Shown here: positions 4,697 through 45,004 of the stretch, piece after piece
How the letters are laid out: every line of letters starts with the position of its first letter
How positions within the stretch are numbered: the stretch's first letter is position 1
DNA from: Candidatus Tectimicrobiota bacterium
GTDB lineage: Bacteria > Tectomicrobia > Entotheonellia > Entotheonellales > Entotheonellaceae
Length of the DNA stretch: 64,000 bases
Assembly (NCBI GenBank): GCA_026005175.1
Contig: BPKO01000008.1
Location: 62,001-126,000 of the forward strand
Direction of reading: 5' to 3'
Notes under the pieces: generated by a model
Database searches by the model: none
What the model was told of the DNA's origin: nothing
What the model saw: the letters and a program-made list of their open reading frames with translations, nothing else
Position numbers and translations under genes: made by a program

Positions 4697-4719
4697 AAAA
4701 AGGGGACAGGCTACTTTTT
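4697..4719 (+). repeat. REP-like repeat, left copy of an inverted pair
   Basis: The stretch AAAAAGGGGACAGGCTACTT(TTT) lies in the gap between the nitroreductase and the SDR gene. Its reverse complement recurs at 5972-5993 with 22 matching bases. Motifs of this type occur in many bacterial genomes as short dispersed repeats, often near Y1/RAYT transposases; that link is from memory. No transposase is seen here. The rest of the 4514-4755 gap shows no convincing gene. Confidence 0.7.
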
Positions 4720-38266: not shown

Positions 38267-39584
38267 ATGCAGCCCTGGCAAGAACGCTACCGTGACAAGC
38301 TGGTGCCGGTGGACGACGCCCTGCGGGTCATCAAGCCCGGCGATACGGTGGTCATCGGCATCAATGGCAACATTCCGTCTTTTCTGTGTCGCGCCCTCGG
38401 CGAGCGCCTGGAGGCCTGGCCCGAGCTGCACCTTCTTGGTGCCGGCCTCCTGGAGCGCTTTGCTTTCCACGAACCGCAAGTGGCAGCCCGCTACACGGTG
38501 CAGGACATGTTTCTCACCGCCGCCACGCGCCCGGCGATGCAGCAGCGGGCCATTGACTTCTTGCCCTTCAATACCGCCCTCTGGCCTAGCGACGTGCGCC
38601 AGGGGCTGCGCACGGTCAATGTCTTTCTTACCAGCGTTTCGCCACCTGACGAGCACGGCTACTGCAGCTTCGGCTTCATGCTCTGGGCTTCGGCAGACCT
38701 GGTGGAAGTGGCCAAGGTGGTGATCGCCGAAGTGGACGAAAGCCACATCGTTACTTACGGCGACAACTACGTGCACGTGTCGCAGCTCGACTACCTGGTA
38801 GAGAAGCCCGAGGCCACCACGTTCGGCGACGTGGCCACCACCATGGGGTTTTCGGCACCCGACGCGGTGGACCGCCAGATCGCTGCGCACGCTGCCGAGC
38901 TCATCCACGACGGCGATACTTTCCAGCTCGGCGCCGGCACCGTCTCCATGGCGGTGATCGAGCACCTGCGCCAGAAGAACGACCTCGGCTTTCATTCCGA
39001 AATCTGCCCCACCGGGGTGGCCCAGCTCATTGCCGCTGGCAACATCAACGGTGCCTACAAGACGCTCAACCCGCGCAAGGCGGTCTGCACTGCCCTGTGG
39101 GGCGACGAGTTCACCCTCGACTTTGCCCACCTCAACCCGGCCATCGAGCTCAAGCGCATGAGCTACACCAACAATCCGCGCATCATCGCCCAGCACGACA
39201 ACATGGTGGCCATCAACACCGCCCTGAGCGTCGACCTGACGGGGCAGGTGGCAGTGGAGAGCTTCGGGGCCGGCCATGTACTCCGGGGTGGGGGGTCAGC
39301 TAGAGTTCACCATCGGCGCCTTGCTGGCCAAAAACGGCCGTGCTGTGACCGTGCTGCCCTCGACCGCCCGCGGCGGGACGGTGAGCCGCATCGTGCCGCA
39401 GCACCCCGAAGGCACGGTGGTCAGCGTGCCGCGCACGTACGTCAATTACGTGGTGACCGAGTACGGCGCCGTCAACTTGCTGGGCAAGTCCCAGCGCGAG
39501 CGGGCCGAGCTGCTCATCTCCATTGCCCACCCCGACTTTCGCCCCGAGCTGCGCCGTGCGGCGCGGCGCCTGTTCTGGCCGTAA
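38267..39584 (+). CDS. Acetyl-CoA hydrolase/4-hydroxybutyrate CoA-transferase family protein (frameshifted)
   Basis: Family I CoA-transferase of about 438 aa. DALRVIKPGDTVVIG, PDEHGYCSFG, GDTFQLGAGTVSMAV, and GFHSEICPTGVAQL are typical. The frame breaks after VAVESFGAG; the ORF at 39276 continues with MYSGVGGQLEFTIGALLAKNG and ends YVVTEYGAVNLLGKSQRERA. One extra C at 39274-39275 explains it. GGAGG precedes the ATG. The track ORF that joins its N-terminal part to the downstream kinase is a frameshift artefact. It leads a three-gene operon. Confidence 0.87.
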
Positions 39585-39631
39585 GATCCAAGGCCCTGCC
39601 ATGTGGTACGCTTAAAAGCAAGGAGAACGGC

Positions 39632-40651
39632 GTGAGCGCGGTGGGTATCCTCGCCAATCCAGCAGCAGGCCGTGACATCCGCCGGCTGGTGGCCGCGGGG
39701 TCGGTGGTGTCGAATAGGGAAAAAGTGCAGATCGTGCGCCGCGTGCTGCTTGGGCTCGACGCCCTGGGGGTAGAGACGGTGCTCACCATGCCCGACGCTT
39801 TTGCCATCTGCCGCCAGGCGCAGCAGGGGCTGCGCCTGCGCGCCTGCGTGGTGGAGGTGCCGCTGGCGGCCGAGTTCACGGCGCTCGACACCACCCGGGC
39901 GGCGGCGCTGATGGCCGCCCAGGGGGTAGGGTGCCTCGTCAGCCTGGGCGGCGATGGCACCTGCCGGGCCGTGGCCAAGGGATGTGGCAACGTCCCCCTC
40001 CTGCCCTTGTCGACGGGGACCAACAACGTCTTTCCCTATGCTCTGGAAGGCACCCTGGCCGGGCTGGCCGCAGGCCTCGTGGCGCGCGCCCTGGTGCCGC
40101 CAGAGGCGGTCATCGAGCAGCGGCCGCGCCTGGACGTTATCCGCAACGGGACGGCGGCCGAGCTGGCGGTGGTCGACGTCGTCTTCTGCACCCAACCCTT
40201 TGTCGGCGCCCGTGCCGTCTGGGACGTGCGTACCGTGCGCACCGTGGTGGTGGCCCAGCGCCGGCCGGCGCAGCTGGGCTTTGCCGCCCTGGCCGGCAAC
40301 TTCCCCGCCGACGGGGCAGGCGGCATGCTCCTGGAGCTCGACCCGGACGCCCCGCCGGTGCTGGCGCCCATTGCCCCCGGAATGGTGGTGCCGGTGGGGG
40401 TCCGCCGCGCCGTGCCGCTTCCTCCTGGGGCAGAGGTGACGCTGGCGGCGGGTGCTGGTACCCTGGCGCTCGACGGCGAGCGCGAGGTGGAGGTGAGCCC
40501 GCACGACCGCATTGTGGTGCGCCTCAACCCCCACGGGCCGCGGGTCATCAATCCCTGGCGGGTACTGGAGCTAGCAGCCCAGGAAGGCGTTTTTGTGCGG
40601 CTGCCCGGCTTGGGAAAGCCGGCCGGCACCGACGAGGCAGAGGCGCAATGA
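39632..40651 (+). CDS. ATP-NAD kinase/AcoX-like protein
   Basis: 339-aa protein of the COG3199 group of NAD-kinase-like folds. GILANPAAGRDIRRLV, LVSLGGDGTCRAVAKGC and LPLSTGTNNVFP are the family's nucleotide-binding motifs. AcoX members sit in acetoin operons with unproved function; others are annotated as ATP- or polyphosphate-dependent NAD kinases. The GTG start at 39632 has AAGGAG at good spacing. It overlaps the next gene by ATGA, so it is tied to the PEP-synthase-like enzyme and the CoA-transferase. Confidence 0.8.
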   Translation: MSAVGILANPAAGRDIRRLVAAGSVVSNREKVQIVRRVLLGLDALGVETVLTMPDAFAICRQAQQGLRLRACVVEVPLAAEFTALDTTRAAALMAAQGVGCLVSLGGDGTCRAVAKGCGNVPLLPLSTGTNNVFPYALEGTLAGLAAGLVARALVPPEAVIEQRPRLDVIRNGTAAELAVVDVVFCTQPFVGARAVWDVRTVRTVVVAQRRPAQLGFAALAGNFPADGAGGMLLELDPDAPPVLAPIAPGMVVPVGVRRAVPLPPGAEVTLAAGAGTLALDGEREVEVSPHDRIVVRLNPHGPRVINPWRVLELAAQEGVFVRLPGLGKPAGTDEAEAQ

Positions 40652-43158
40652 GCGAGGTGCTTTTCTTTACGGAAGCAGCGGCTACCGAGGTCGCCCTGGC
40701 CGGCGGCAAAGGGGCCACCCTGGCGCGGCTGGCCCAGGAGGGGCTGCCGGTGCCGGCAGGCTGCATCCTTACCACCCGCGCCCTGGCCGCGTGCCTGGCG
40801 CGCTTGCAGCGGCGCGCCGACGCCGCCTCGCCGGTGCCAGCTGACGCGTTGCAGGCCGTCGTTCCCGAGGCGCTGCGCCAGGCGCTGCAACAGGCCTTGC
40901 GCCAGCTGGGAGAGGCGCCGCACGGCTGGGCGGTGCGCTCCTCCGCGGTAGAAGAAGACAGCGCCACCGCCTCGTTTGCCGGCATGTACGTCAGCTTTGT
41001 CGCTGTGGCCGAAGCCGACCTGTGGCATGCCATCAGCGCCTGCTGGGCCTCGTGGTGGGGAGAGCGTGCGGTGGCTTACCGCCGCCGCCTGGGTAGGGCC
41101 GGCGACACGCCGCGCCTGGCGGTGGTGGTGCAGAAGACGGTGCCGGCCCGCAGCGCCGGTGTCGCCTTTACGGCCGACCCGCTCAGCGGCGACCGGCAGC
41201 GGCTGGTGATCAACGCCGCGGCGGGCAGCGGAGAGCCCGTGGTGGCCGGGGTGGTAGAGCCCGAGCAGTACGTGCTGGCCAAGAGCCCTACCCTACGCCT
41301 GCTGCAGCGCACCCCGGCGTCTTCTGCCGTGCTGCCCGAGCCGGCCTTGATGGCCCTGGCCGCGCTCTGCTTGCGCCTGGAAGCCCTGGGCGGTACGCCG
41401 CAAGACGTCGAGTGGGTGTGGGACGGAAGGCAGTGCTGGATCGTGCAGAGCCGGCCGATCACCACCCTGGCAGAGGGCGAGGGCGACCCCGTGGTGTGGA
41501 GCAACGCCAACCTCAAAGAGGTGATGCCCGGGCTGGTGTCGCCGTTTACCTGGTCGCTGATGCAGCCTCAGCTCGAAGCGGCCATGCGCTGCCAGTATGC
41601 CCAGGCCGGCTACCGCGTGCCGGCCGGTACGCCTTTGCTGCGGCGCATTTGGGGGAGGCCGTACTTCAACCTGTCGCTCTTGCAGCGCGCCGCCTACGCG
41701 CTCTACGGCACCACGCCGGAGCCCCACACCGAGCAGCTCGGCGGGGTGGCCATTGCCACGTTTACCCCGCCGGCGCAGGTGCCAGTGTGGCAGCGCCTGC
41801 GCTGGCTGGGCAACGCCTTGCGCTTTAGCCGCCTTGCCGAAAAAGTCCGCCGCCGCGCTCCGGCACAGTTTGCCGCCGTGGTGCGCTTGTGGCGCGAAGC
41901 CCTGGCGCAGGTCCCGTCTCTGGAGCGCCAGGCCCTGCTTTCCAGGCTCGAGGCCTTTGCTTCCGAGACCCTGCCTTTTCTCTTGCAGCACCTGCACCTG
42001 ACTTGGGCGATGAGCGGCAATCTCGGCTATTTGCGCGCTTTTGTCGCCCGCCGCCTGCCGCAGGCGCGCCCCGGCCTGGTGGCCGAGCTGGTGACCGGTC
42101 TGGGGGAAGTCAGCAGCGCCGAGCAGAGCTACCGGCTGTGGGCACTGTCGCGCCTGGCGCGGCAGTCGCCGCAGGTGATGGCCTTTCTGGCACAGCGGCA
42201 GTGGCACCGCTGGCCGCAGGCTCTGGCCGGCACCGCCTTTGCCGAAGCCTGGCAGCAGTTTCTCGACGACTTTGGCCACCGCGGCGTGTACGAAGTCGAA
42301 ATGGCCAACCCGCGCTGGCGGGAGCAGCCGGATTACCTCTTTGCCACGCTGGCCGCTTACGCCGCGCTTCCTGGGGAAACGCCGCCCTTTGCGCCGCAGG
42401 TGCAGAGCCAGCGGCGGCAGGCTGCCGAGCGCGAGCTGCTGCGCCAAGTGGCGCCCTGGTGGCGCCCCTGGCTGCGACTGGTGATTCGCCGCAGCCAGGA
42501 ATTCTCGCGCCTGCGGGAAAACAGCAAAGCGCACCTCGTGCGGCTCATCGACGTGGGCAGGATGCTGGCCCTGGCCGCCGGGCGCTTCCTGGTTGCCGAC
42601 GGCCTGCTCCAGCAAGTCGAGGAGGTTTTCCTGCTCACCGGCGACGAGGTGAAAGCGGCGCTGCGCGGCGAGCTGACTGCCTCGGCGCTGCGCCAGCGGC
42701 TGGCACAGCGCCGCCTGGAGCGCCAGCGCGATGCTGCCTTGCAGCCGCCAGAGGCCTTCGTCGGCACCCGGCCCCTCTATGGACAGGCCCTGGATGGCGA
42801 AGCGGTGTTGCGCGGGCTGCCTTCCAGCCCAGGGCGGGTGACGGCCACGGTGCGGGTGCTGCGCTCGCCGCGCGAAGGCGACCGCTTGCAGCCCGGAGAG
42901 ATCCTGGTGGCGCCGGCCACCGATCCGGGCTGGACGCCGCTCTTTCTTCTGGCAGCCGGGCTGGTGGTAGAGACGGGCGGCTACCTCTCCCACGGCGCCA
43001 TCGTGGCAAGAGAATACGGCATTCCGGCGGTGCTCAACGTGCCGCAGGCCACGCGCCGCATTCCCGATGGTGCCATCGTTACTCTGGACGGTGGCGAGGG
43101 CCTGGTGCGGCTGCACGCGAGCGCTCCGCCTTGCGCGCCACAAACAGCCCCTCGGTAA
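40648..43158 (+). CDS. PEP-synthase/rifampin-phosphotransferase-like dikinase
   Basis: 836-aa phosphotransferase with three parts: an N-terminal ATP-grasp domain (GGKGATLARLAQEGLPVPAG, WAVRSSAVEEDSATASFAGMY, VEWVWDG..WIVQSRP), a central helical part with FGHRGVYEVEMANPRW, and a C-terminal swivelling domain with the phospho-His in GGYLSHGAIVARE (His782). This order, with no separate PEP/pyruvate TIM barrel, is that of rifampin phosphotransferase and related PPDK-like proteins. A true PEP synthase is therefore less likely. It overlaps the AcoX-like gene (ATGA). Its 3' end overlaps the convergent methyltransferase by 80 bp. Confidence 0.82.
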   Translation: MSEVLFFTEAAATEVALAGGKGATLARLAQEGLPVPAGCILTTRALAACLARLQRRADAASPVPADALQAVVPEALRQALQQALRQLGEAPHGWAVRSSAVEEDSATASFAGMYVSFVAVAEADLWHAISACWASWWGERAVAYRRRLGRAGDTPRLAVVVQKTVPARSAGVAFTADPLSGDRQRLVINAAAGSGEPVVAGVVEPEQYVLAKSPTLRLLQRTPASSAVLPEPALMALAALCLRLEALGGTPQDVEWVWDGRQCWIVQSRPITTLAEGEGDPVVWSNANLKEVMPGLVSPFTWSLMQPQLEAAMRCQYAQAGYRVPAGTPLLRRIWGRPYFNLSLLQRAAYALYGTTPEPHTEQLGGVAIATFTPPAQVPVWQRLRWLGNALRFSRLAEKVRRRAPAQFAAVVRLWREALAQVPSLERQALLSRLEAFASETLPFLLQHLHLTWAMSGNLGYLRAFVARRLPQARPGLVAELVTGLGEVSSAEQSYRLWALSRLARQSPQVMAFLAQRQWHRWPQALAGTAFAEAWQQFLDDFGHRGVYEVEMANPRWREQPDYLFATLAAYAALPGETPPFAPQVQSQRRQAAERELLRQVAPWWRPWLRLVIRRSQEFSRLRENSKAHLVRLIDVGRMLALAAGRFLVADGLLQQVEEVFLLTGDEVKAALRGELTASALRQRLAQRRLERQRDAALQPPEAFVGTRPLYGQALDGEAVLRGLPSSPGRVTATVRVLRSPREGDRLQPGEILVAPATDPGWTPLFLLAAGLVVETGGYLSHGAIVAREYGIPAVLNVPQATRRIPDGAIVTLDGGEGLVRLHASAPPCAPQTAPR

Positions 43159-43897
43159 GCTCGAAGTAGGCTTCCTGCCCTTCCACGCGCGGCCGCAAGT
43201 AAGCCCGCGACGCCGCCGGGGCGTTGAAGAGCCGCTGGCGTAGCTCCTCGACCACCTCGCGGCTCACCGCCAGGCGCGCCACCCAGTCGGCAAAGTTCAT
43301 CGTCTTGACCAGCACTTCCTCGGCCTCCAGGATGAGCCCGGCAGCTTGCAGCAGCTGGCGCCAGTCGGAAAGCGAATAGGCCCAGTGGTGCGAGGGGTCG
43401 CGCAGCGCTTCGAAGTCGTTGATGTATGCCGCGGCAGCCGTATCCTCCGGCATCACGTTATCGGCCAGGGCCACCCGTCCTCCCGGAGCGCAGACGCGAG
43501 CCATTTCGCGCAGCGCCCGCGCCACATCGGGGAAGTGGTGCGGCGCGATGCGGCACGTCACCACGGCAAAGCTGGCGTCAGCAAAGGGGAGGTGCTCGGC
43601 GTCACCTTGGCAGAAGCCGACGTTGCCAAGGCCGCGCTGGTGGGCCAGCCAGCGGGCTTCACCCAGCATGGGGCGGGTGAGGTCGAGGCCCACCACGTAA
43701 GCCACGTGCGGTGCAAACGCCAAGGCCGTGTGTCCGGCACCGGTGGCGATGTCGAGGACCCGCTCGTGGCCTTGCGGCGCCACGAGCTGCACCAGGCGCG
43801 CCAAGCTGGTGCCTCGTGCGTGCACGGCACTGGTCGTATAAGCACGGGCGTGCGGGCCAAAGGACGCCTGCACGCGGTTCTTGTGGGTCGAATCCAT
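43079..43897 (-). CDS. UbiE/COQ5-like SAM-dependent methyltransferase
   Basis: 272-aa class I methyltransferase. RVLDIATGAGHTALAFAP (motif I), VGLDLTRPML, GDAEHLPFADASFAVVTCRIAPHHF and CAPGGRVALADNV are typical of UbiE-type small-molecule methyltransferases. Start 43897 has GAGGAG upstream; the track start (44170) is rejected because the first 91 residues are not protein-like and cross the repeat. The last 20 residues (RSRAAAPGPRHRPE) lie inside the convergent dikinase gene and look like an accidental extension. Confidence 0.8.
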   Translation of the reverse strand: MDSTHKNRVQASFGPHARAYTTSAVHARGTSLARLVQLVAPQGHERVLDIATGAGHTALAFAPHVAYVVGLDLTRPMLGEARWLAHQRGLGNVGFCQGDAEHLPFADASFAVVTCRIAPHHFPDVARALREMARVCAPGGRVALADNVMPEDTAAAAYINDFEALRDPSHHWAYSLSDWRQLLQAAGLILEAEEVLVKTMNFADWVARLAVSREVVEELRQRLFNAPAASRAYLRPRVEGQEAYFELTEGLFVARKAERSRAAAPGPRHRPE

Positions 43898-43983: not shown

Positions 43984-44008
43984 AAAATGTACTCTGACCC
44001 CATTTTTT
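43984..44008 (-). repeat. REP-like repeat of a second type
   Basis: AAAATGTACTCTGACCCCATTTTTT; its complement AATGGGGTCAGAGTACATTT is a short motif I recall as dispersed and often found beside RAYT/Y1 transposases. It has the same architecture (A run, G4, core, T run) as the 4697/5972 pair but a different core. Single copy here, upstream of the methyltransferase. Confidence 0.55.
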
Positions 44009-44090
44009 GCGGTTAAGTTTTTTGGGCGGGTGGCCGAAAGAGATGGCAGGAAGCCAAAAGCTTCCCATCGTCTCTCCTCCCCTGACCCCG

Positions 44091-44122
44091 TGCTCCTGGG
44101 GACCGCGCGGTTCCCAGGAGCA
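44091..44122 (+). ncRNA. Strong hairpin upstream of a 51-aa ORF
   Basis: TGCTCCTGGGGACC and GGTTCCCAGGAGCA pair over 14 bp (one G-T) around GCGC. It lies 36 bp upstream of the small ORF, so it may be a leader structure controlling its translation, a terminator, or part of a repeat. Confidence 0.45.
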
Positions 44123-44157
44123 TGGGTGCAAGGAGATGAACCAAGAGGAGTCGGCGC

Positions 44158-44313
44158 ATGCCTCTGCCACCCGAGCTGGCTGCCACGCCCGAAGACACGG
44201 CGGTGGTAGGCGACATCGACGCCCTCATCGCTTACATCGAAAGCGGCCAGGCCTTGCAAGATTGGGAAGAACGGCGCGCCGCTTTGCTGCGCGAACTCGA
44301 AGAGCTGCTCTGA
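44158..44313 (+). CDS. Small acidic helical protein, 51 aa
   Basis: Short ORF with a good ribosome site (GAGGAG, 7 bases before ATG). PLPPELAATPEDTAVV leads into DIDALIAYIESGQALQDW, and the end EERRAALLRELEELL is an amphipathic acidic helix. The composition is protein-like and the first half of the ORF is not repetitive. No family recognised; a small regulator or antitoxin-like partner is only a guess. It is set between two strong hairpins and has no toxin-like neighbour. Confidence 0.55.
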   Translation: MPLPPELAATPEDTAVVGDIDALIAYIESGQALQDWEERRAALLRELEELL

Positions 44314-44327
44314 GCCCGTTTGCCGCA

Positions 44328-44384
44328 CCGTCTTTCCGGAGGCGGGTATGGAATGGCATGGGGGTACCCGCCTCCGGAAGACGG
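44328..44384 (+). terminator. 20-bp-stem hairpin after the 51-aa ORF
   Basis: CCGTCTTTCCGGAGGCGGGTA pairs with TACCCGCCTCCGGAAGACGG apart from one bulged T; the loop is 16 nt. It starts 14 bp after the stop. There is no T run; it could be a terminator or an insertion of a palindromic element. Confidence 0.5.
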
Positions 44385-44518
44385 CTTCCTGCCGTCATCC
44401 CCCCTTTGCTCGCTTCCGGCCGGTCGCGCCTGAAGGCTGCGGCTGCGCTCGAGATGCGCTATAATCCCCGCGGTGCCAAGAAAAGGCCGGATGAGCGGCC
44501 GCCGTGGGGAGAACCGCT

Positions 44519-45004
44519 GTGGCGCCTGAAGAAATTATTGCCGAGCAGCTGCGCCGCCGCGGCTGGCGCCTGGCGCTGGCCGAAACCACCACCGGCGGCC
44601 TCATCGCCGTGCGGCTGGTGCGCCTGGCCGGCAGCTCGGCTTACTTCGACCGCAGCATCGTGGCTTACAGCCGACAGGCTAAAATCGATTCCCTGGGCGT
44701 GGACCCGGCGGTGCTGGCGCAGTTTGGCTCGGTAAGCCTGGAGACGGCGCGGGCCATGGCCCTGGGGCTGCAGCGCCTCAGCCGCGTCGAGCTGGTGCTG
44801 GCAGAAACGGGCATCGCCGGCCCCATTGCCGGTCGCTCGCCCAAGCCCATCGGCACGGCGTGCTTTGCGCTGTGCACCCCCACGGGAACGATTTGCGAAG
44901 AGCACCGCTTCAGCGGCGACCGCCACGCCATTCAGGACCACATCGCCGAGCACGCCCTCACCATGCTGGCGCATTACCTGACGAGCGTCCCCGAGGGAAG
45001 CTGA
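44519..45004 (+). CDS. CinA C-terminal-domain protein (nicotinamide-nucleotide amidase, PncC-like)
   Basis: 161-aa protein matching the stand-alone CinA C-terminal domain, which deamidates NMN to NaMN in pyridine nucleotide recycling. LALAETTTGGLIAVRLVRLAGSSAYF and VLAETGIAGPIAG, GTACFAL are the family motifs. The start GTG 44519 has GGGGAG upstream; 44504 is less likely. A TATAAT (44460-44465) lies 54 bp upstream. Its TGA directly precedes the ldcA GTG, so it leads the operon. Confidence 0.85.
   Translation: MAPEEIIAEQLRRRGWRLALAETTTGGLIAVRLVRLAGSSAYFDRSIVAYSRQAKIDSLGVDPAVLAQFGSVSLETARAMALGLQRLSRVELVLAETGIAGPIAGRSPKPIGTACFALCTPTGTICEEHRFSGDRHAIQDHIAEHALTMLAHYLTSVPEGS

Follow-up and report, generated by a model that had tools for sequence, protein, structure and literature searches.

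A solitary TIRtron-type TIR copy beside a probable lineage-restricted small gene and its neighbouring hairpins in a Candidatus Tectimicrobiota genome

The 400-bp block described here lies in a 64-kb stretch of Candidatus Tectimicrobiota DNA, which was analysed whole and which we call the window. The block separates a methyltransferase gene on the minus strand from a plus-strand cinA gene, itself followed by an S66 LD-carboxypeptidase gene. The original prediction placed a REP-like motif, a 14-bp-stem hairpin, an acidic open reading frame (ORF) with a ribosome site and a 20-bp-stem hairpin in this block. All four are present, accompanied by a third hairpin (A) that it had missed:

43079-43897, minus strand: SAM-dependent methyltransferase gene (Methyltransf_11, E 1e-23)
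43984-44006, minus strand: solitary TIR-family copy, AAAATGGGGTCAGAGTACATTTT, with its GGGG end pointing right, towards the ORF
44039-44075, strand not applicable: hairpin A, two paired segments (8 + 6 pairs) separated by a 2x2 internal loop; it resembles a terminator when read on the minus strand
44087-44126, strand not applicable: hairpin B, separating the TIR from the ORF; its fold reaches 18 pairs when G-U is counted, or 14 columns of which one is a mismatch
44158-44313, plus strand: 51-aa acidic ORF, called from coding score, ribosome site and a two-helix model
44328-44384, strand not applicable: hairpin C, a stem of 15 perfect pairs extended by 5 past a one-base bulge
44460-44465, plus strand: probable cinA -10 box, in CGCTATAAT (whole 44457-44465), from comparison by eye
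44519-45004, plus strand: cinA C-terminal-domain gene, its start picked by comparison with relatives

The methyltransferase gene starts at an ATG at 43897 behind a GAGGAG site, and the TIR copy sits about 87 bp upstream of that start, in the 260-bp divergent region between this gene and the 51-aa ORF. Elsewhere in the window, a single 794-aa ORF (38267-40651) has an acetyl-CoA hydrolase-like frame running into a kinase-like one; its middle reads by eye like wrong-frame sequence, and a frameshift or assembly error is possible.

The repeat belongs to a dispersed family in its own genome. Its 23-bp unit, AAAATGTACTCTGACCCCATTTT, embeds the 14-mer GGGGTCAGAGTACA, which matches exactly on the minus strand at 43988-44001 and is the only copy in the window within two mismatches. 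Across the genome as assembled (3.99 Mb in 14 contigs, 77% complete), we found 23 copies of this 14-mer, 11 exact and 12 with one mismatch, compared with none for a reversed-pattern control. The core AATGGGGTCAGAGNNCA has 22 exact copies there versus no exact copy in four relatives of the class, one of which holds a single one-mismatch match. A/T-rich borders common to the copies extend the family consensus to the 23-bp AAAATGGGGTCAGAG(T/A)ACATTTT. The copies are scattered as singles, inverted pairs and direct pairs, 21 of the 23 outside predicted genes. Some of the inverted pairs would fold into hairpins with 24-bp stems, and the unit AAAATGGGGTCAGAGTACATTTT itself shows weak self-pairing (a 6-bp stem, AAAATG/CATTTT). 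The window copy and other listed copies carry the motif GGGGWSAS in the form GGGGTCAG. Another GGGGTCAG, at 44082 on the minus strand and 88 bp away, might have been a degenerate direct partner of the repeat, but we rejected it: it lacks the A/T context, and by our own estimate such an 8-mer is expected a few times per 64 kb at the composition of the window. Searching the literature by the letters of the repeat returned unrelated primers only, and no relevant paper among those searched gave its exact sequence.

The position of the copies relative to gene ends is an observation of its own. With gene calls that are approximate, 12 of the 23 copies of the GGGGTCAGAG repeat (loci L001-L023) overlap a predicted stop codon or sit within 10 bp of one; of the window's intergenic bases, only about 5% lie that close. 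At L002, L004 and L009, a TGA within the repeat appears to act as the stop of the gene (for example, ...ENVL*).

On contig 3, three copies of the same repeat, at C3:108739 (+), 109467 (-) and 109519 (-), surround a Y1_Tnp gene for a Y1/HUH transposase (domain C3:109082-109408, minus strand); all three face inward, and the GGGG side forms the outer end of the repeat. The encoded protein has 234 aa, with a Y1 match that stops near residue 140, and homologous transposases in other phyla are also accompanied by GGGGACAG or GGGGTCAG inverted repeats. Genes of the TIRYT kind have been described with flanking TIRs of consensus GGGGWSAS, in an arrangement named the TIRtron, and certain TIRs belong to dispersed repeat families (Di Nocera et al. 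2013, PMC3733652). Most TIRYTs have been placed in TnpA-Y1 subclass 2.1, where no typical REPs were noted (PMC6006769). Judged by sequence, the repeat at 43984-44006 matches a TIR copy of this TIRtron/TIRYT kind, not a classical GTAG REP. It shares with that kind a short GGGGWSAS repeat inverted around a Y1 tyrosine transposase gene and a dispersal as singles and dimers mostly outside genes; it differs in that the window copy is a lone repeat without a transposase.

Two better-known systems resemble it in part. As with REPs and REPINs and their RAYTs (PMC3116915, PMC2817692), a non-autonomous dispersed repeat goes together with a cognate HUH transposase gene, and the inverted doublets resemble REPINs. 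However, AAAATGGGGTCAGAGTACATTTT lacks the GTAG/GTGG foot of REPs and REPINs, its internal palindrome is weak, and its copies number in the tens rather than the hundreds. The earlier description as REP-like is thus apt for a transposase-associated repeat of TIRYT type, although not in the sense of a true REP with its GTAG foot. The Y1 HUH domain is also shared with IS200/IS605 insertion sequences, but the contig 3 protein scores poorly on the IS200 model (18.5 bits, below the cut-off of 55) and just passes the NCBI REP_Tyr_transpos model (80.3 versus a cut-off of 80). This HUH tyrosine transposase would most likely recognize the repeat as single-stranded DNA and be the enzyme that spread it.

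The genome holds three TIRtrons, each with a repeat of its own, and two of these repeats form dispersed families in tens of copies. The TIRtron on contig 8 has the repeat GGGGACAGGCTAC. A second TIR family, AAGGGGACAGGCTAC, which includes C8:27393 and 28096, flanks another Y1 transposase gene; allowing one mismatch, it numbers 53 copies in the genome, many of them in plus/minus doublets 36-38 bp apart that are REPIN-like. Two inward-facing AAGGGGACAGGCTAC copies in the window, at 4702 (+) and 5982 (-), enclose 1.3 kb with a short-chain dehydrogenase-like gene and a small gene, a segment that is possibly a composite element. The third TIRtron, on contig 4 (C4:307134-307421, L048), has a Y1 transposase, apparently frameshifted, inside GGGGTCAGGTCTTGAA inverted repeats. 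Separately, seven direct copies of (A/T)TGGGGTCAGAGTCCTTTTTT at C3:393620-401364 (L096) adjoin repeated genes that encode coiled-coil membrane-like proteins and others resembling the Uma2 family; this array looks like a segmental duplication rather than independent insertions.

The 51-aa ORF looks coding by several measures. An AGAGGAG ribosome site lies seven bases ahead of its ATG. In a codon model trained on the genes of the window with this ORF held out, it scores 0.45 per codon, where the real-gene mean is 0.51 and the wrong-frame mean -0.56, a comparison to be read with the caveat that its A/E/L-rich composition can inflate codon scores. Among wrong-frame stretches 0.4% reach its score, and among 5,245 open shuffles not one does; the score ranks first among the 164 window ORFs of 40-70 aa; the other reading frames across 44158-44313 score as non-coding. 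From the single sequence, AlphaFold confidently predicts a two-helix hairpin (mean pLDDT 92.5, pTM 0.57), although high scores are frequent for short helical sequences. The conservation that the original prediction had made a test of its proposal did not materialize: no homologue turned up in 386 genomes, three of the same family included, in 84,980 genomes covered by a seeded scan, or in plasmids, and there was nothing credible in the class or phylum, in Pfam, NCBIfam, PHROGs or PADLOC, in the PDB by either sequence or fold, or among viral folds.

These observations most likely describe a real orphan gene, restricted to its lineage, for a small acidic two-helix protein whose translation we infer; a role for it in binding or regulation is no more than a guess. 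The ORF might instead be untranslated, with a codon bias that arose by chance or was left from a longer gene, a reading with which the lack of homologues in every set searched agrees. We consider this unlikely in view of the top coding score among the small ORFs of the window, the open shuffles that never equalled it, the well-spaced ribosome site and the confident single-sequence fold.

The hairpins are unusually strong for this DNA. The window contains five stem-loops with at least 13 paired bases, versus one or two in each of three Markov shuffles, and hairpins B and C are two of the five. RNA folding, which had been proposed as a check, bore out their strength, with z = -5.0 for the leader (44020-44160) and z = -2.6 for 44300-44400. 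Neither B nor C has a U tract, no T run follows the stem of hairpin C on either strand, and a terminator search reported no intrinsic terminator at hairpin C. A tRNA search found none. By position, hairpins A and B would lie in the leader of the small gene or in the divergent promoter region. Hairpin C is placed as expected for the end of the small gene's transcript because the cinA promoter box lies downstream; from that placement, it would probably end or stabilize this transcript ahead of a separate cinA promoter, and calling it a terminator is a guess. Most likely, then, the hairpins bound the transcript of the small gene, and cinA uses its own downstream promoter. A CG(C/T)TATAAT box precedes cinA in two of three same-family genomes. 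The region upstream of cinA differs between the window and these relatives, and neither the 51-aa ORF nor the hairpins occur upstream of cinA in the three genomes.

How the parts belong together is a further question, on which the original prediction offered a regulated small-protein unit or a miniature mobile element carrying an ORF. The coding look of the ORF sustains the small-protein half of the former, but neither a homologue nor a conserved RNA structure nor a sign of regulation was found for the rest. The hairpins might form a cis-regulatory RNA, an attenuator or riboswitch acting on the 51-aa ORF or cinA. The low z of the leader fits such a role, as does a competition at hairpin C, whose outer pairs (44328-44332 with 44380-44384) vie with a small alternative hairpin at 44380-44396; yet an Rfam search gave nothing above threshold and only implausible weak matches, the hairpins are not kept upstream of cinA in relatives, and the U tract is missing, which together leave the idea improbable. 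Similarly improbable, in our judgement, is a combined version in which the lineage-restricted two-helix protein has an expression-controlling structured leader in hairpins A and B and is ended by a U-less terminator hairpin.

The miniature-element proposal would make the entire 400-bp block a MITE-like unit mobilized in trans with the 51-aa ORF as cargo, and it has in its favour a bona fide transposase-associated repeat at one end and the absence of the block from the orthologous region upstream of cinA in relatives. The check that the original prediction itself had named, a genome search for further copies of the whole block, recovered the 23-bp repeat only, with no second copy of the sequence of hairpins A/B or hairpin C and a single copy of the ORF. 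Since hairpins and ORF are thus found once in the genome, we reject the proposal. Nor does the window hold an inverted partner repeat that would close an element around the ORF; moreover, because GGGG is the outer end in the contig 3 TIRtron and here faces the ORF, the ORF would fall outside any such element. A mobile block of this kind is therefore very improbable. We found no sign supporting the repeat and the ORF as a linked unit, and the features adjoin by happenstance. With considerable confidence, we read the locus as three independent things side by side: a solitary TIRtron TIR, a probable lineage-restricted small gene and hairpins by its transcript.

Neither the TIR copy nor the small ORF alters current understanding, and the 51-aa ORF offers small-protein annotation a modest candidate. 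With this family, the TIRtron/TIRYT repeats, which have been sparsely studied, reach a bacterial phylum of which little has been sampled (five genomes), and the three TIRtrons with distinct repeats in one genome can serve as a natural test of how specific each transposase is for its repeat.
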